From: Candidatus Aminicenantota bacterium
GTDB lineage: Bacteria > Acidobacteriota > Aminicenantia > S016-38
Direction: 5' to 3'
Assembly: GCA_027068075.1 (NCBI GenBank)
Contig: JAMOUJ010000005.1
Coordinates: 186,001 to 250,000 of the forward strand
DNA length: 64,000 nucleotides
Below the pieces are notes generated by a model. That model saw nothing but the letters and a program-made list of their open reading frames with translations, was not told the origin of the DNA and did no database searches. Both the position numbers and the translations under genes were made by a program. Shown here one piece after another: positions 4,964-52,987 of the stretch. Each line of letters starts with the position of its first letter. The first letter of the stretch is position 1.

Positions 4964-6308
4964 GGCCCAGCCTTTTCATGGCCATGGAGAGGGTGGATGG
5001 ATTCATCCCTAAAAGTTTCGCTGCCTTTTTTTGAACTCCCCCCGCCTGCTGAAGGGCCGTAAGAATAAGGTTTCTTTCAAACTCCTCCATTAACTCCTTG
5101 TAGGATTTGCTGCCCAGAACTATTTTATCCAGGGAAAGGGGTTTTGCCCTGACTATCCACTCTGGAAGGTCCTCCTCGTCTATCCACTCCTTTTTCGTAA
5201 GAATCACCGCCCTCTCCAGGGCGTTTTTCAGTTCTCTTACATTGCCGGGCCAGTGATAATTCATCAACCTCTCCATGGCCTTTTCCTTTATCCCCTTTAT
5301 CTTCTTGTTGTGCTTTTTGGAAAATTCCTCCAGAAAATGGAATACGAACAGGGGAATGTCTTCCCTCCTTTCCCTCAGGGGAGGAAGTTCTATTCTCACC
5401 ACATTTATCCTGTAGAAAAGGTCTTCCCGAAATTTTCCCTCTTCCACGGCCCTTTTCAGCGGTTCGTTGGATGCCACCAGGATTCTGGCGGTGGACTTTC
5501 TGGGCCTTGTCTCCCCCAATTTTACGAACTCCTTGGTTTCAAGGAACCTCAACAATTTGGACTGGGTTTCCCAGGGGAGGGTGGTTATATCGTCCAGGAG
5601 AAGAGTTCCGCCCTCTGCCTCCTCTATAAATCCCCTTTTGTCCTCGGTGGCTCCGGTAAAGGCCCCCTTCCTGTGGCCGAAAAGATGGGATTCCACCAGA
5701 TCCGGGGAAAGGTTCCCGCAGTGAAAGACCACGAATTTTCCCCTTCTGCCTGACCTCTTGTGGATCTCCCGGGCCACCATCTCCTTTCCGGTGCCGCTCT
5801 CCCCTTCAATGAGCACCGTAACATCGGTATTGGCCACCCGGTTTATGGCCTCATAGACCTCTATCATCTTCCTGCTTTTCCCTATCAAACTTCCGAAGCC
5901 TTTGATCTCGTCCAGTTGTTTTTTCAACTCTATGTTTTCCCGATAAACCTCCCTCAATTTCAGGGCTTCCTTTACGCTTTCCTCAAAATCCTTCAAGGTA
6001 AAGGGTTTTTCCAGAAAATCAAAGGCTCCCCCCTTGAGGGCCCTCACCGCCGATTCCACAGTTCCGTAGGCAGTGAGGACTATAATAGGGGTGTAGGGAA
6101 GCCTCTCCCTTATGAGGGGGAGGATGTCCAGACCGTTGCCATCGGGAAGCCTGATGTCAAGAAAAACCAGGTCGTAGTCCTGGTCAAGGGCCTCCCTGGC
6201 CTCCTCCAGACTCAGGGCCTCCCTGGTGGAAATGCCCCGCCTCCGCAGGGCCCTTTTGATTACATCCTGAATGACATCTTCGTCATCTATAACCAGGGCC
6301 TTGTTCAT
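4956..6308 (-). CDS. Sigma-54-dependent response regulator (NtrC family: REC-AAA+-HTH)
   Basis: KALVIDDEDVIQDV, GESGTGKE, GAFTGA loop, C-terminal Fis-like helix-turn-helix. Confidence 0.95.
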   Translation of the reverse strand: MNKALVIDDEDVIQDVIKRALRRRGISTREALSLEEAREALDQDYDLVFLDIRLPDGNGLDILPLIRERLPYTPIIVLTAYGTVESAVRALKGGAFDFLEKPFTLKDFEESVKEALKLREVYRENIELKKQLDEIKGFGSLIGKSRKMIEVYEAINRVANTDVTVLIEGESGTGKEMVAREIHKRSGRRGKFVVFHCGNLSPDLVESHLFGHRKGAFTGATEDKRGFIEEAEGGTLLLDDITTLPWETQSKLLRFLETKEFVKLGETRPRKSTARILVASNEPLKRAVEEGKFREDLFYRINVVRIELPPLRERREDIPLFVFHFLEEFSKKHNKKIKGIKEKAMERLMNYHWPGNVRELKNALERAVILTKKEWIDEEDLPEWIVRAKPLSLDKIVLGSKSYKELMEEFERNLILTALQQAGGVQKKAAKLLGMNPSTLSMAMKRLGLK

Positions 6309-8871
6309 CTTTCCTCCTTCTGGGCAGAGTGATTACGAAGGTAGTTCCCTTCCCCACTTCGCTCCTCACCTCTATTTCTCCTCCGTGCTCTTTAATTATG
6401 GCAAAGGTTATGGAAAGCCCCAAACCGGTGCCCCGGGGCTTGGTGGTGAAAAAAGGGTCAAATATCTTGGGTATGTTCTGGGGGTCTATTCCCCTTCCGG
6501 TGTCGGAAAACTCTATCCTCACCCGGCCGTCCTCCTGGTAAAGGCTCACCCTGATCCTTCCCCCCCTTTCCACCGCCTCCAGGGCGTTGGAAAAGAGGTT
6601 GAAGAATACCTGCTGCATCCTATCGGGATTTACGCTGGCCACGGCGTTTCCTAAAATCTCCACCTCCACCCCCTTCTTCCTTATCTGGGCCGTGAGGACC
6701 TCCTTTACATCTGTGATGACATCCCTCAGGTCCACCAGAACGAACCCCTCGGAGGAGTGCCGGGCAAAACTCAGAAGACTCCGGACCGTTTTTACGATCC
6801 TTCTAATCTGAACCTGAATTCTCTCCAGGAGTTCCAGTTTCTCCTCCGGAAGGTCCTCCCCGAGGATCTCCATGTAGTTCATGATGCCGGTGATGGGGGT
6901 GTTTATTTCGTGAGCAATTCCAGCCACCAGGGTTCCCAGGGAAGCCAGTTTTTCGGAGGTCATAAGCCTCTGCTGGAGCATAAAGTTCTCGGTGATATCT
7001 TCCAGGAGGAAAACATGGCCCTCCGCCCTTTTCAAAGGGGTTTTAAGAAGGGTAAACAACCTCTTTTCCCCTGAAGAAGTGTTGAACCATCTTTCGGTAA
7101 CCACCCCCTGGGGAATTTCCATCCCCTGGCGTAATATGTCCTCCAGTTGGGATGGAGAAAAGGTCTTTTCCGCTTCCCTGTTCTTCGCCAGTATCCTTCC
7201 CCTTTTATCCGTCACCACCAGGACCAGGGGAAGACTGTTTATTATGCTCTCGTTGAAGTCCTTGAGGGCCTCCAGTTCCGCAGCCCTTCTGTGTAGGTTC
7301 ATGTAAAGGAGGGAGTTCTCCAGGGCCAGGGTAACATAGGGAGAAATGAACCTGAGAAGTTCAAGGTCCTCCACATTGTAATAACTCCTGTCCCTCTTGG
7401 GTCCCAGGAGGAGGAACCCCAGTTCTTGGCCCTCCTTGGTAAACCTCCAGAGCCTTACATAACCGGGGATGAGGGCAGGAACCTTCATGCTCATCGGAAG
7501 AGATTCCTCCCCGGTTTTACCTATAAGCATAAATTCCCTTCCGTTGTACCCGTAAAGGGCTACCCGGGTGGCGGAAAGGGCCTTGGAGACTATTTCCGGC
7601 AGTTTTTCCTCAAGGCTTTGCCACTCCTTGGCGGCGGCCAGGTCCTGGGCCACCTCCACCAGTTGGGTTCTATATCTTAAACTCTCGCTGTAGAAAAGTT
7701 TATCCAGAAACCTGTTGACCCTTTCGTAAAGAAAGGGGAAGACCAGCACCGCCAGAAAAACCGCCGCCGAAACGGCAAAAATGGCTATTCCCCTCTTTTC
7801 CCTGGGGAAAAAGCCCACGGCAAAACTGAGGAAAATGGCGAGAACGAATAGGAAGGAAATGGTGAAGGCCAGGGCCCTCTTCAAAATTACATCCACATCC
7901 GGTAGCCGGTATTTCGTCAAACTTGAAAGAAAGGCCAGGGGAAGGAAAATGTGGAAACTCAGGGAAAGTTCCCCCAACTGCCCCAGGGGCTTTCCCATGA
8001 GGAGGGGAAAAATATAAAGAAGGGCGAAGGGAAGGAAGGCGGCCCCCAGACCGGAAAGAACCCATTTTATCTGCGCCCTCTCCTCGTGGGAGGGAATTTT
8101 AAGGAGTAGGTAAGAGAGCAAGCCCACGGCCAGAGCCACGAATATCACCGTGAACCACACATGAAGGGTCCTGAAAAGATGATATAGGTGGACTATCTTC
8201 AGGGGTGGGATGTGGGGGAGAACAACGAAGAAGGCGGCTTCCGCCAGGAAAAACCCCAGGGGGAGAAGGAAAAGATATTTCTTTCCCCGCAGTTCTACCC
8301 TGTGGGGAAAGAGGGAGAAGAAATAGAGGAAATAAACCGGGAAAAACCACAGGGAAGCGCTCTTTAAAAAATAAAACACGAAATCCAGAAGGGTTCCGGT
8401 GCCCAGGGGGGAGAAAAGATAAACCGAATAGAGAAGGGTGCTGAGGATGAGAAAACTGTCCCGCACCTCCTCCAGTTTTATTCTGAAAAAAAGGAAAAAG
8501 GCTATAAACAGGGTTATGGTCCCCACCATGGCCCCCACCACATATCCGAGGCCCACGGGCCTTTTGTGAAGAACTATAAAATTAAGGGATTCCTCCCCGG
8601 TGGGTTTCCTGATCCTGTAAACCACCCCCTCCCCGGGATTGTATAGGGATATTTTCTTGTGGACCTGAAGAAGGGAATTTACCTGCTCCCCTCCCACCTC
8701 TACCAGGCGGTCCCCCGGAGAGACCTCCTCCACGGAACTGGACAAACTCACCAGGTTCCTGGTCCACTGGATCCCGTCGGTTATGGGTGGGGAAAAGACA
8801 GCCTGATAAAAGTTTATGGTTCCCAGGAGGAAGATAAGTACGGATGTGGCCAGGAGCCCCTTTGCCTTCAA
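6283..8871 (-). CDS. Multi-TM sensor histidine kinase with extracytoplasmic PDZ-like segment, GAF-like and PAS domains (TTG start)
   Basis: GIAHEINTPITGIMNYMEIL H-box; NLFSNALEAV, DTGRGI, GTGLGLSI; N-terminal VEEVSPGDRLVEVGGEQV PDZ-like motif between TM1 and the following TM bundle. Confidence 0.9.
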   Translation of the reverse strand: MKAKGLLATSVLIFLLGTINFYQAVFSPPITDGIQWTRNLVSLSSSVEEVSPGDRLVEVGGEQVNSLLQVHKKISLYNPGEGVVYRIRKPTGEESLNFIVLHKRPVGLGYVVGAMVGTITLFIAFFLFFRIKLEEVRDSFLILSTLLYSVYLFSPLGTGTLLDFVFYFLKSASLWFFPVYFLYFFSLFPHRVELRGKKYLFLLPLGFFLAEAAFFVVLPHIPPLKIVHLYHLFRTLHVWFTVIFVALAVGLLSYLLLKIPSHEERAQIKWVLSGLGAAFLPFALLYIFPLLMGKPLGQLGELSLSFHIFLPLAFLSSLTKYRLPDVDVILKRALAFTISFLFVLAIFLSFAVGFFPREKRGIAIFAVSAAVFLAVLVFPFLYERVNRFLDKLFYSESLRYRTQLVEVAQDLAAAKEWQSLEEKLPEIVSKALSATRVALYGYNGREFMLIGKTGEESLPMSMKVPALIPGYVRLWRFTKEGQELGFLLLGPKRDRSYYNVEDLELLRFISPYVTLALENSLLYMNLHRRAAELEALKDFNESIINSLPLVLVVTDKRGRILAKNREAEKTFSPSQLEDILRQGMEIPQGVVTERWFNTSSGEKRLFTLLKTPLKRAEGHVFLLEDITENFMLQQRLMTSEKLASLGTLVAGIAHEINTPITGIMNYMEILGEDLPEEKLELLERIQVQIRRIVKTVRSLLSFARHSSEGFVLVDLRDVITDVKEVLTAQIRKKGVEVEILGNAVASVNPDRMQQVFFNLFSNALEAVERGGRIRVSLYQEDGRVRIEFSDTGRGIDPQNIPKIFDPFFTTKPRGTGLGLSITFAIIKEHGGEIEVRSEVGKGTTFVITLPRRRKDEQGPGYR

Positions 8872-8881
8872 AATAAAAAAT

Positions 8882-8967
8882 TGGTGCCGAAGAGGGGACT
8901 CGAACCCCTACGGGCAAGGCCCACTAGATCCTGAATCTAGCGCGTCTGCCAATTCCGCCACTTCGGC
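8882..8967 (-). tRNA. tRNA-Leu (CAG), CCA encoded
   Basis: Reverse complement GCCGAAGTGGCGGAATTGGCAGACGCGCTAGATTCAGGATCTAGTGGGCCTTGCCCGTAGGGGTTCGAGTCCCCTCTTCGGCACCA; long variable arm; anticodon loop TTCAGGA. Confidence 0.95.
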
Positions 8968-33052: not shown

Positions 33053-33058
33053 TATAAT
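33053..33058 (+). promoter_or_regulatory. -10 element (TATAAT) of tRNA-Arg/folE2 unit
   Basis: GGTATAATAT 12 nt upstream of tRNA 5' end. Confidence 0.6.
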
Positions 33059-33070
33059 ATAAATTCGGGT

Positions 33071-33144
33071 GCGCCCGTAGCTCAATTGGATAGAGCGGCT
33101 GACTACGAATCAGTTGGTTGGGGGTTCGAGTCCCTCCGGGCGTG
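33071..33144 (+). tRNA. tRNA-Arg (ACG), CCA not encoded
   Basis: GCGCCCGTAGCTCAATTGGATAGAGCGGCTGACTACGAATCAGTTGGTTGGGGGTTCGAGTCCCTCCGGGCGTG; anticodon loop CTACGAA. Confidence 0.95.
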
Positions 33145-33159: not shown

Positions 33160-33936
33160 ATGAAGGATGTTCAATCCCAGAGGGACACCAGGGAAATTCC
33201 GCTAAACAAAGTAGGAATCAAGGACCTGCTTTACCCTATAAAGGTTCTGGACAGAAAGAACAAATACCAATCCACCGTGGCCACGGTGAGCATGTATGTG
33301 GACCTTCCCAAGGAATTCCGGGGAACCCACATGTCCAGGTTCATTGAGGTCCTGGAAAAACACAAAAACACCATGGCCATCCACAACATAGAAAAAATCC
33401 TGGAGGACATCCGGGAGGTATTCAACGCCTCCACTTCCCACATTGAACTTCGGTTTCCTTATTTTATAAGAAAGAAGGCACCGGTGACGGGGATAGAAAG
33501 TTATATGAACTACACCTGCGGTCTCATTGGAACCAAGGGCCAGAAGGGTTTTGATCTGGTGGTGGAGGTGAATGTCCCGATCCACAATCTATGCCCCTGT
33601 TCCCGGGAAATATCCCGGAGGGGCGCCCACAACCAGAGGGGGATAGCACGCCTTCAGGTAAGGATGAGAAAACTGGTATGGTTTGAAGAACTGGTGGAGG
33701 TGGCAGAAGGGGCCGCCAGCGCCCCCCTGTTTTCCCTTCTCAAGAGGGAGGACGAAAAATACATAACCGAAAGGGCCTACGACAACCCAAAATTCGTGGA
33801 GGATGCCGCCAGGGACATCGCCCTGGCCCTCAAGGCGGACCCCAGGATAACCTGGTTCAGGGTGGAAGTGGAGAATTTTGAATCCATTCACAACCACAAC
33901 GCCTACGCCTGCGTGGAAGAAACCAATGGTCTATAG
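33160..33936 (+). CDS. folE2: GTP cyclohydrolase FolE2 (start refined; ORF-track start lies inside the tRNA)
   Basis: DVQSQRDTREIPLNKVGIKDLLYPIKVLDR, THMSRFIEVL, VPIHNLCPCSREIS, ESIHNHNAYA. Confidence 0.95.
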   Translation: MKDVQSQRDTREIPLNKVGIKDLLYPIKVLDRKNKYQSTVATVSMYVDLPKEFRGTHMSRFIEVLEKHKNTMAIHNIEKILEDIREVFNASTSHIELRFPYFIRKKAPVTGIESYMNYTCGLIGTKGQKGFDLVVEVNVPIHNLCPCSREISRRGAHNQRGIARLQVRMRKLVWFEELVEVAEGAASAPLFSLLKREDEKYITERAYDNPKFVEDAARDIALALKADPRITWFRVEVENFESIHNHNAYACVEETNGL

Positions 33937-36121: not shown

Positions 36122-37909
36122 ATGAGAAAATTCCTCCTTCTTTTATTTTTCCCCCTACTGGTCTATCCCGGGGCCCTGTCTTACAAAATAAACGCCTCCC
36201 TGGAAATCCAGGACAAATACAAAGTACTGGTTAAGGGAAGCGAAGAAATAGTGTGGGAAAACAATTCCATGCTTCCGGTCAGGAAACTGTATTTCCACCT
36301 ATATCAGAATGCCTTCCGGGAGGGGTCCAGTTTTATGAAGGAAATCGGAGGTCTTCCGAAAAAATGGAAAAAGCACAGGGAATGGTGGGGAGAGGAAAAA
36401 ATTGAGAAGATCACGGTAAACGGGGAGGACATTACATCCACCTTGAAGTTCGTTCACCCCGATGACGGAAATGCCCGGGACAGAACCGTGGTGACGGCGG
36501 ACCTGCCCGAGGAAATCCCCCCGGGAGAAAGGATCACCATAGAGGTACAGTTCACCACGAAAATGCCCAAGGCCTTTGCCAGGTCTGGGGTGGGAAGGGG
36601 ATATTATTTCGTCTCCCAATGGTTCCCCAAACTGGGGGTTCTTGAAAACAGCGGCACCTGGGTTTGCCATCAATACCACAGGAACGGGGAATTTTACTCG
36701 GATTTTTCCACCTACGAAGTGACCTTAAAACTTCCCTCCAACCTGGTGGTGGCGGCCAGCGGTGATCTGGTGAAGGAAAAAACCCGGGGCAAGGAAAAAC
36801 TCCTGGAGTTCCACCAGGAGATGGTCCACGATTTTGCCTGGGCCGCCGACGAGGACTTCGTAAAAATAGAGGACCACTTCCAGAGCAAATATCAGCCCCG
36901 GGTAAGGATTCTCCTCTACATCCAGCCGGCCCACTTGAAACAGAAGGGAAGGTACCTGGAGGCCCTGAAAAGGGCCATGGAGTTTTTCTCCCGGAAGGTG
37001 GCCCCCTATCCCTACGGCAGAATAACCGTGGTGGATCCGGACATATCCGCCATGAGAACCTCGGGCATGGAATACCCCACCCTCATAACCGGAGGAAGCC
37101 TGTATCTGCTCCCCCGGGGGATAAAATTCACCGAAAATGTAACGATCCACGAATTCGGCCATCAATACTGGTACGGCGTGGTGGCCAACAACGAAGCCGA
37201 GGAGGCCTGGCTTGACGAAGGCATAAACACCTTTTTTGAAATTAACATCATGGACACATATCCCTGGTTCTTTGACATTTTAGGCTACAAGGCCCGGGAC
37301 AGCGAAAGATACCGCATGGGCTACATAAAGAGCACCTACGCAGACCCGGTGATAAAACCTTCCTGGAAGTTCTTTCCCGGAACCTACTCCGCCAATGTGT
37401 ACACCAGGGCAGCCCTGACCCTGGAGACCTGGAAAAGGCTGGTGGGTGAGGAGAAGTTCTACGCCGCCATAAGCGAATACTTCAAGAGGTATGCGTACAA
37501 ACACCCCCGATCCCGGGATTTCTTCTTCACCATGGAGGAGTTTCTGGGGGATTGGTCTGGACTGTGGAAACCCATGTTTTACGAAGCGGGCAAGGTCAAC
37601 TGGAAGGTGGCCGATGTTAAGGGCAAGGAGGTCCTCCTTCTCAGGGAGGGCCTGGAGGTGGATGTGCCGGTGGAGGTAAGCGTGAAAACCGCCGACGGAA
37701 AGGAGCATAGTTTTGTGTGGCGGGGGAGGTGGATGAAAAGGGATTTTTCCCGGAGGGTTATCTCCGTGAGAATTGACCCAAAGGAAAAACTCATGGTGGA
37801 TTCCAACCCCTTTGACAATCAATGGTCCCGTTCCTCCTCCATCCCGGCCAGACTCACCTGGCGCTTCCTGGCCAGGCTTCAGATAATTTTTCTCAATCTT
37901 CTGCCATAG
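36122..37909 (+). CDS. M1 family (aminopeptidase N-like) metallopeptidase, secreted
   Basis: Signal peptide; VTIHEFGHQYWYGVVANNEAEEAWLDEGINTFFE (HExxH plus downstream E). Confidence 0.92.
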   Translation: MRKFLLLLFFPLLVYPGALSYKINASLEIQDKYKVLVKGSEEIVWENNSMLPVRKLYFHLYQNAFREGSSFMKEIGGLPKKWKKHREWWGEEKIEKITVNGEDITSTLKFVHPDDGNARDRTVVTADLPEEIPPGERITIEVQFTTKMPKAFARSGVGRGYYFVSQWFPKLGVLENSGTWVCHQYHRNGEFYSDFSTYEVTLKLPSNLVVAASGDLVKEKTRGKEKLLEFHQEMVHDFAWAADEDFVKIEDHFQSKYQPRVRILLYIQPAHLKQKGRYLEALKRAMEFFSRKVAPYPYGRITVVDPDISAMRTSGMEYPTLITGGSLYLLPRGIKFTENVTIHEFGHQYWYGVVANNEAEEAWLDEGINTFFEINIMDTYPWFFDILGYKARDSERYRMGYIKSTYADPVIKPSWKFFPGTYSANVYTRAALTLETWKRLVGEEKFYAAISEYFKRYAYKHPRSRDFFFTMEEFLGDWSGLWKPMFYEAGKVNWKVADVKGKEVLLLREGLEVDVPVEVSVKTADGKEHSFVWRGRWMKRDFSRRVISVRIDPKEKLMVDSNPFDNQWSRSSSIPARLTWRFLARLQIIFLNLLP

Positions 37910-50360: not shown

Positions 50361-52063
50361 TGGAGAAGGAAAAATTTTTAAAGGAAATCCTTGAGGCCTC
50401 CGAGGAACCCCTCCCCCTGGGGGATGTAATAGAAAAATTCGCCAGGAAGTTCAGGGAAGAGGAGGTTCTGGAACCGGTAAAAATATACGACCCGGACTGC
50501 CGCTACGAAGTGGGCGACCTCATATACAAGGAATTCCAGGAGAAACTCAGGGTAGGCCGGGACAAATACATTGAATTTGAGGGGGCGGCGGTTCTTCGGG
50601 TGGTGGAGAAAAAGTATTCCAAGGAGTTGGGCTGTTATCTCATAGGACTGGAATACGACGGGGGCGGCCCCCTGAAGGAACACTTCAAATACCTCAGCAG
50701 AAGGAAGGTGGGCTTTTATCTCCCCAGTTACGAATTAAAGGAATGCCCAAAACTTCCTCCGGAGAAGGACCCCCGAAGGCAGGAGAAGGAACCTTCGGAG
50801 GAATTTCTGAAAAAATGCAGAAAAGAATTGCAGGAGACCGTGGAAAAGGACAAGGAAATCTATCGCTGGGGAGAGTTTCTGGTTCTTTCCTCCAGGCTCA
50901 AGGACATAAGTGAAGATCAGTTGAAGGAACTGGAAGAATACCTCAAGGGTAAGGGTTCCTCTGCCTCCACCGAGGAACTGGTGGAGAGGGTTCTTGGAAA
51001 ATCCAGAGAGGCCTCGGACTTCGGAATGTGGTGTCTCTCCCTGAACAGGGCCCTCTCGTCCAAGAAACTGACCTTCGTCCTGGTGTCCCGGCGGGGCTAC
51101 GGTCGGTGGAACACATGGGTAAACCTGGTGAACCTGGAAAAGGACCTGCCCATAAAGGTGCGAAGATCCCTGCCCATTTTTACATCCCGCTCCCGGGTGG
51201 AAATTGAAACCTACCTTAAGGACTTTGAGAAGGAAGAAAAGAAAACCGAGGCCAGGAACAAGCACATCCTGACCTGGAGGGAAGTTCTCTCCGGAGCCGT
51301 AAGGGTAAGAAAGGGCTTTAGAAACCTCTTGGGAGGAGAACTGGAGATAAAGGCCAGAGATCGGGGAAACGAGTATACCCTGTTCTACTTCCCGGAAAAG
51401 AACATGATATTGGGCCTCTCCAGGTATTACAAGGAGAACCTGGTGGTTCAGGGGGCCCAACTTTTCCTTGAATGGAAGGAGGACCATTTTCAACTCTCTC
51501 TGAGGATGGAGAAAAAACCCATCCGGGCCCCCATGGTGATCTACAAACCCGAAGGCGACCGCTTTGAACTGAAGGACGCCGAAATTTCCACCGAGGTGGA
51601 CCTGGACGCCAGGGCCTTCATCACCCGGAGGGAACTGGACCTTCTACTCTCCAGGATGGACTCCTGGAGGGAAATTCGGGACCTGACGGCCCTGGTGAGG
51701 GAACTTGCTAAAAACTTCGGGGACCCGGAAAAGGACTTTAGAATTCACTACCTCAAACTCTTTCATCTCCTGGACCTAATCCACGCCACTGCCAAGGAAG
51801 ACCTTTTAAAATCCCTCCTGGGCAACCCGGAATTCTCCCAGGATGAAGAGGACTTCGGATACTTCAAACTGGACCTGAACCGGGCGGTGGAGATTCCCGT
51901 GGAGAAAGAGGAAAAACCCGCCATCTCCCTGGAGGTTTCGGAAGGGCCTTCCCGACCGAAAAAGAAGAAAAAAAGGAAAGCCAGGAAGCCGTCATCCCAG
52001 GCCGCCAGGGAAGGTTTCTTTGCGGAAAAACTCAAGGAAGCCCTGGATAAAAAAGAAGAATAG
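50360..52063 (+). CDS. Uncharacterised 567-aa protein with very basic C-terminal region
   Basis: ATG overlaps argF TAA stop; KKKKKRKARKPSSQAAREGFF tail; no family recognised. Confidence 0.75.
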   Translation: MEKEKFLKEILEASEEPLPLGDVIEKFARKFREEEVLEPVKIYDPDCRYEVGDLIYKEFQEKLRVGRDKYIEFEGAAVLRVVEKKYSKELGCYLIGLEYDGGGPLKEHFKYLSRRKVGFYLPSYELKECPKLPPEKDPRRQEKEPSEEFLKKCRKELQETVEKDKEIYRWGEFLVLSSRLKDISEDQLKELEEYLKGKGSSASTEELVERVLGKSREASDFGMWCLSLNRALSSKKLTFVLVSRRGYGRWNTWVNLVNLEKDLPIKVRRSLPIFTSRSRVEIETYLKDFEKEEKKTEARNKHILTWREVLSGAVRVRKGFRNLLGGELEIKARDRGNEYTLFYFPEKNMILGLSRYYKENLVVQGAQLFLEWKEDHFQLSLRMEKKPIRAPMVIYKPEGDRFELKDAEISTEVDLDARAFITRRELDLLLSRMDSWREIRDLTALVRELAKNFGDPEKDFRIHYLKLFHLLDLIHATAKEDLLKSLLGNPEFSQDEEDFGYFKLDLNRAVEIPVEKEEKPAISLEVSEGPSRPKKKKKRKARKPSSQAAREGFFAEKLKEALDKKEE

Positions 52064-52068
52064 CGTGT

Positions 52069-52074
52069 TATAAT
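52069..52074 (+). promoter_or_regulatory. -10 element (TATAAT) of tRNA-Ala/galU unit
   Basis: TATAAT 8 nt upstream of tRNA 5' end. Confidence 0.6.
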
Positions 52075-52082
52075 TTCATAAA

Positions 52083-52155
52083 GGGCGGTTAGCTCAGGCG
52101 GGAGAGCGCTGGTTTCGCACGCCAGAGGTCAGGGGTTCGAATCCCCTACCGTCCA
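52083..52155 (+). tRNA. tRNA-Ala (CGC), CCA not encoded
   Basis: GGGCGGTTAGCTCAGGCGGGAGAGCGCTGGTTTCGCACGCCAGAGGTCAGGGGTTCGAATCCCCTACCGTCCA; anticodon loop TTCGCAC; G3:U70 alanine identity pair. Confidence 0.95.
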
Positions 52156-52165
52156 CTTTATCATC

Positions 52166-52987
52166 ATGGAAAAAGTCGTCTTTCCCGTGGCGGGTCTGGG
52201 AACCCGCATGCTTCCCGCAAGCAAGGCCGTGCCCAAGGAAATACTCCCCATATACGATAGACCGGCCATCCACTACACCGTGGAGGAAGCCGTAAAATCA
52301 GGATTTTCCAAGATGATCTTCGTCACTTCCCGGGGCAAAGAAGCCATCCTAAATTATTTTGACAGGGATGTGGAATTGGAGGAAGTCCTCATGGCCCGGG
52401 GGAAAAGGGAGATGGCGGAGTTTTTGAAGCAACTTTCCTCCCTGGCGGAGTTCATCTCCGTAAGGCAGGGAATAGCCCTGGGCCTGGGCCACGCGGTCCT
52501 TCAGGCGAGGGCCGTGGTGGGAGAAGAACCCTTCGCCGTAGTTCTTCCCGACGACATTGTCCTGTGCGAGCCCCCTCTCCTCAAGCAAATGCGGGAAGTT
52601 TACCTGCGTACGGGGAAATCGGTGGTGGCCCTGTACCGGGTGGCCAAGGAGGAGATTCCCTCCTTCGGGATAGCGGACGCCGAAGTGAAATCCGACGGGA
52701 ATGTGGTAATCCACGACCTGGTGGAAAAACCCCCGGTGGAAGAGGCCCCCTCCGACCTGGCGGTTATAGGGAGATACATCCTGGAACCCGAGATTTTCAG
52801 CATTCTGGAGAAAACCCCTCCGGGAAAGGGAGGGGAAATACAACTTACCGATGCCCTGAGGGTTCTTGCCAGGGAAGGGAGGCTGGTGGGCCTCGTTTTT
52901 GAGGGGACCAGGCTGGATGTGGGAAATCCCAGGGGACTTTTAAGGGCAAGTCTGGAAATTGCGAGAAGACGGGGTGTTAAAATATAG
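52166..52987 (+). CDS. galU: UTP--glucose-1-phosphate uridylyltransferase
   Basis: EKVVFPVAGLGTRMLPASKAVPKEILPIYDRPAIHYTVEEAV. Confidence 0.96.
   Translation: MEKVVFPVAGLGTRMLPASKAVPKEILPIYDRPAIHYTVEEAVKSGFSKMIFVTSRGKEAILNYFDRDVELEEVLMARGKREMAEFLKQLSSLAEFISVRQGIALGLGHAVLQARAVVGEEPFAVVLPDDIVLCEPPLLKQMREVYLRTGKSVVALYRVAKEEIPSFGIADAEVKSDGNVVIHDLVEKPPVEEAPSDLAVIGRYILEPEIFSILEKTPPGKGGEIQLTDALRVLAREGRLVGLVFEGTRLDVGNPRGLLRASLEIARRRGVKI

Follow-up and report, generated by a model that had tools for sequence, protein, structure and literature searches.

On the forward strand of the window (the whole stretch of 64,000 nucleotides that was analysed), a tRNA gene and a protein-coding gene stand almost end to end behind a single promoter-like element. 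The upstream ORF closes with a stop codon at 52061-52063 and is followed by an extended -10 element, TGTTATAAT (TG-t-TATAAT, 52066-52074, read from the sequence, with the TATAAT hexamer at 52069-52074), which ends 8 nt before the 5' end of tRNA-Ala(CGC) (52083-52155; Rfam RF00005, 64.3 bits; CCA not encoded). ARAGORN places the same tRNA at 52083-52156, one base longer at its 3' end. A 10-nt spacer, CTTTATCATC (52156-52165), containing neither an SD nor a -10 at leaderless distance, leads directly to the ATG at 52166 of a galU-type UTP-glucose-1-phosphate uridylyltransferase gene (52166-52987, 273 aa). The encoded protein scores 325.9 bits against TIGR01099 (cut-off 326.8), with residues 2-261 aligned to model positions 2-261; since the alignment begins at residue 2, the galU start is fixed at 52166 and a later start is not plausible. 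The closest named GalU loci are from Candidatus Aminicenantes metagenome-assembled genomes, at 82-83% identity. Folding of the tRNA-galU RNA was uninformative (z = -1.3). A promoter of galU's own within the spacer was considered and rejected, as a sequence scan found no -10 between tRNA-Ala and the ATG. A dicistronic tRNA-Ala-galU unit is well supported as a gene layout, and the -10 at 52069 would then serve both genes.

The window's two remaining tRNAs follow the same plan. On the forward strand, tRNA-Arg(ACG) (33071-33144; ARAGORN, Rfam RF00005) is preceded by a TATAAT at 33053-33058 and followed, 15 nt after its 3' end, by the ATG of folE2 (33160-33936; GTP cyclohydrolase, PF02649, residues 1-250 on profile positions 1-260), which lacks an SD. 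On the reverse strand, tRNA-Leu(CAG) (8882-8967; tRNA scan and sequence; CCA encoded) has a TATAAT 8 nt upstream and is followed after 10 nt by the TTG at 8871 that opens a histidine kinase gene (6283-8871; profile matches to PF02518 and PF00512), likewise without an SD, and T-runs are present in both spacers. An earlier note on this DNA had described these three arrangements as identical; the plan is indeed shared by all three, but they are similar rather than identical, differing in distance (10, 15 and 10 nt), in start codon (ATG or TTG) and in whether CCA is encoded. Its coordinates for the galU locus (TATAAT, tRNA-Ala, 10-nt SD-less spacer, ATG at 52166) are right to the base, and its statements that the gap holds no terminator and no SD agree with our sequence reading and scans, which gave no terminator-like site on the + strand at the junction.

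The genome to which the window belongs (G000; 1.9 Mb, 9 contigs, 43 tRNAs) contains many such pairs. We called a terminal tRNA, meaning one not followed by another tRNA, linked when the same strand carried, 2-18 nt beyond it, the start of an ORF 85 aa or longer. By this measure 20 of 32 terminal tRNAs were linked; the equivalent count on their antisense side gave 4 of 31 (p = 7e-5), and 23 terminal tRNAs sampled from three genomes of other members of the class gave none (p = 5e-7). Gaps from tRNA to start codon, curated by comparison with relatives, were 7-17 nt (n=20), counted from the ARAGORN end, which may include one extra base; the leader predicted after a cut at the tRNA 3' end is about 6-19 nt across genes. 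Pfam matches were obtained for 18 of the 20 linked genes, and in eight of them the alignment to the family model opens at one of residues 1-5, which fixes their starts. They encode SecE, trigger factor (tig), an FtsY-type SRP GTPase, a ThrRS-type synthetase (thrS), TilS, Prs and GalU, together with FolE2, SurE, a signal peptidase, an S49 peptidase, an acylphosphatase, a sigma-54 activator, a histidine kinase, a YitT-family protein and others. Base composition in the spacers ahead of these genes is 64% T and 5% G. That tRNAs directly adjoin coding starts recurrently across this genome, in a layout of the mitochondrial punctuation type, is well supported. At the other end of the tRNAs, a -10 lies only 5-12 nt (in one case 16 nt) before the 5' end in 24 of the 43, so that primary tRNA 5' leaders would be only a few nucleotides long. 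Downstream of the tmRNA (L242, 1407-1753, tag ANDFALAA) come a T-run, a -10-like TTAAAAT and then an ATG start.

For comparison of initiation signals, we set the tRNA flanks against a 464-kb sample of G000 with 401 called genes, of which 179 had unambiguous starts once the linked genes had been removed. Since no 16S rRNA was found in the assembly from which to read the anti-SD at its 3' end, we derived the SD from a peak of purines between -5 and -12 and scored it as an SD four-mer at -18 to -4. It was present in 117 of 179 background genes (65%) and in none of the 20 tRNA-linked genes (p = 4e-9). Where a gene follows another CDS at an equally short distance, the SD was kept in 72 of 105 cases (p = 3e-9 against the linked genes), and compaction alone therefore does not explain its loss after tRNAs. 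A tRNA-linked tuf homologue in this genome retains an SD, AAAGGAGG. Among SD-less background starts, 20 of 62 had a TATAAT-like hexamer whose 3' end lies 6-9 nt ahead of the start (control windows gave 0-3). Judged by sequence, G000 contains promoter-encoded leaderless genes beside SD genes, and the position of their -10 corresponds to leaders of roughly 0-2 nt. A -10 at the 6-9 nt distance was found in only 1 of the 20 linked genes, in a weak form (CATAAT), and not at galU. Because the SD is missing in all 20 and a leaderless -10 occurs just once, we assign the linked genes on these signals to a third class, with no SD, no leaderless promoter and a tRNA 3' end nearby. Start-region folding did not differ significantly between linked and other genes. 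Leaderless-type starts also occur within the window, at 36122, 38733, 41722 and, with TTG, 3282 (all +). Elsewhere in G000, tRNA-Glu(TTC) (G000:C5:152613) is followed by a TATAAT of its own and a GTG start 30 nt downstream, a leaderless promoter in place of direct linkage.

The arrangement is conserved within the window's family. The same tRNA-Ala stands upstream of galU in six of six galU-bearing family genomes, with a gap of 8-10 nt and diverged spacers, and at all six loci a TATAAT box lies 6-12 nt before the tRNA (distances counted by eye on printed sequences). The linkage recurs genome-wide in a member of the same genus (G003; 19 of 32 terminal tRNAs, or 20 linked genes in a slightly wider window, none of the 20 with an SD) and in a more distant member of the family (G004, GalU identity 59%; 17 of 31, or 18 in the slightly wider window), where 1 of 18 linked genes has gained an SD. 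In both relatives the linkages are held at similar distance although the spacers have diverged, and the UUG starts that follow tRNA-Leu(CAG) and tRNA-Asp are conserved, the former being the TTG of the histidine kinase, found in G003 and G004 alike.

Beyond the family, four unrelated genomes gave 4 linked tRNAs of 29, three of them in one GC-rich genome and two of these three with TTG starts. We also scanned 396 genomes across the phylum for a pattern running from the T-loop to TTTTTATG. The scan included five family genomes, with 3-5 matches in each, and other genomes mostly gave fewer; among the non-family loci checked, most of the ATGs open no ORF, the exceptions being a tRNA followed by a 461-aa ORF (f5), a tRNA followed by a 148-aa ORF (f29) and a doubtful case of 98 aa. 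The tRNA-T-run-ATG units of these two ORF families (L316 and L317 for the 461-aa ORF; L321, L322 and L324 for the 148-aa ORF) are each conserved among genomes that are related to one another but do not belong to the window's family. Because it is frequent in G000, G003 and G004, absent from the 23 terminal tRNAs sampled in other class members and sparse in the phylum scan, the linkage is best read as a derived and maintained trait of the window's family, with sporadic single cases elsewhere.

We favour, as a fairly probable reading, a tRNA-punctuation layout in which one promoter would give rise to both tRNA and mRNA and 3' processing of the tRNA would leave a short, U-rich, SD-less leader. 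At galU, the tRNA and the coding gene would be transcribed as one unit from the -10 at 52069, one of about 20 such units in G000; the folded tRNA would be excised by RNase P at its 5' end and by a putative nuclease at or just after its 3' end, so that the tRNA would both mark and make the 5' boundary of the message. The remaining mRNA would begin with about 6-19 nt of leader, rich in U, poor in G, lacking an SD and too short for SD loading, and its start would be used by an SD-independent route, as for the promoter-encoded leaderless genes of G000, possibly helped by S1-type binding to the leader. Because the 30S subunit would be expected to bind poorly with a folded tRNA 6-10 nt from the start, and because no translated gene lies directly upstream to which initiation could be coupled, excision before translation would be the simplest model. 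The dicistronic tRNA-mRNA transcript proposed in the earlier note fits the gene layout, given the enrichment and the lack of an intervening -10, and from these we infer co-transcription. The genome-wide excess of short tRNA-to-CDS gaps, on which that note had made its proposal depend, turned out to be strong and family-wide. Its term 'near-leaderless' is slightly off for galU, where a cut after the discriminator would leave 10 nt as opposed to about 0-2 nt in true leaderless genes. Leaders of 6-19 nt, not leaderless in the strict sense, count among the points against the favoured reading, as do the SD kept by the tuf homologue, the single SD-bearing linked gene in G004, start-region folding that resembles that of other genes, the want of a match to RNase J, a full match to RNase E/G or an above-threshold match to RNase Z, and the many spacer T-runs, which could act in termination.

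RNase P RNA is present in G000 (302 bits). Across six Aminicenantia genomes (G000, G003, G004, G008, G014 and G049), RNase Y gave clear matches in all, the RNase J model TIGR00649 gave none, RNase E/G gave no full match (with sub-threshold partial matches in two of the six) and RNase Z models hit only sub-threshold MBL proteins, an unusual set of RNases. In G000, RNase Z-like MBL proteins are encoded at C2:56635-57357 and C2:179859-180299. We speculate that where an RNase J match is missing, 5'-monophosphate mRNAs might persist more easily. More tentatively, and with rather less confidence than we place in the layout, the lineage may use tRNA excision generally to produce short-leader, SD-independent mRNAs for core proteins (SecE, FtsY, trigger factor, ThrRS, TilS, Prs and GalU), whose output would depend on the rate of tRNA maturation and on a non-standard 3' tRNA nuclease.

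The arrangement could also have arisen by compaction only: a streamlined genome would have lost the space between tRNA and gene, and ribosomes would translate the dicistronic RNA without prior processing, at an unstructured U-rich site (S1-type binding), tRNA maturation playing no role in translation. The genome is compact, with a median co-directional gap of -1 nt, and the T-rich, G-poor spacers are of the type that S1 is said to favour (PMC5397173); we nevertheless regard this explanation as rather unlikely, given that CDS-CDS gaps of equal length have mostly kept the SD that is missing from all 20 linked genes, and that ribosome binding so close to a folded tRNA should be hindered.

Somewhat less likely again is that the acceptor stem and T-run form an intrinsic terminator with weak read-through, the short gap serving to keep the downstream gene low relative to the tRNA. 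Many linked spacers do open with T5-T7 directly after the tRNA, and tRNAs without a linked gene have T-rich trailers too. The T-run is, however, not conserved at orthologous pairs, as the family's galU spacers illustrate (CTTTATCATC, CTTTGTCCC, CTTTAGCC and TAAAAAAC), and among the linked genes are some whose products cells usually need in quantity, such as SecE, trigger factor and the ThrRS-type synthetase. We consider it very improbable that each downstream gene is an ordinary leaderless gene transcribed from a separate promoter that lies within the tRNA or the spacer: true leaderless promoters do exist in G000, the one after tRNA-Glu(TTC) among them, but the linked genes, apart from the one with the weak CATAAT, have no -10 at the distance this would need.

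If the tRNA-punctuation reading is true, the family would show in bacteria what tRNA punctuation is in mitochondria, and tRNA maturation would be naturally tied to the synthesis of proteins for secretion, translation and precursor supply. It makes testable the idea that 5' ends made by processing, beside those made by promoters, feed SD-independent initiation genome-wide, as well as a route by which tRNA punctuation arises in a compacting genome. In the open-access literature searched, we found no description of a bacterial precedent for such a system.

Several known systems share parts of it. Bacterial tRNA-mRNA operons include those of the thrU-tyrU-glyT-thrT-tufB type and tRNA-Trp-secE, and in the classical form the coding gene has an SD-bearing leader. 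As in those operons, tRNA and protein gene would here belong to one unit, and tuf-type and tRNA-Trp-secE linkages occur in G000 too; unlike them, about 20 units here lack an SD, none of the 20 linked genes having the four-mer at -18 to -4, and follow a gap of 7-17 nt, while the tuf unit keeps its SD. An SD-independent message made by RNA cleavage has a parallel in MazF of E. coli, cited in PMC3848588 as producing leaderless mRNAs in this way; MazF differs in being a stress toxin that cuts at many sites, whereas here the tRNA itself would be the signal and processing would be constitutive.

Bacterial TA-led leaderless genes, in which a -10 box lying about 10 nt upstream determines the 5' end (PMC3160421), resemble the linked genes in having an SD-less start, mostly ATG and sometimes TTG, near the presumed RNA 5' end. 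The linked genes differ from them in that the tRNA occupies the position of the -10 (a -10 ending about 6-9 nt before the start being found in 1 of 20 linked genes vs 20 of 62 SD-less background starts), and PMC3160421 makes no mention of tRNA. In mitochondrial tRNA punctuation, mitochondrial RNase P and RNase Z excise tRNAs and so free the mRNAs (PMC8437803). The system described here is like it in that a tRNA adjoins an SD-less message start at many genes per genome and that excision would make the mRNA 5' end. It is unlike it in having a leader of 6-19 nt rather than almost none, in an RNA-based RNase P, and in its setting on a bacterial chromosome of free-living type, among many promoters and ordinary SD genes.
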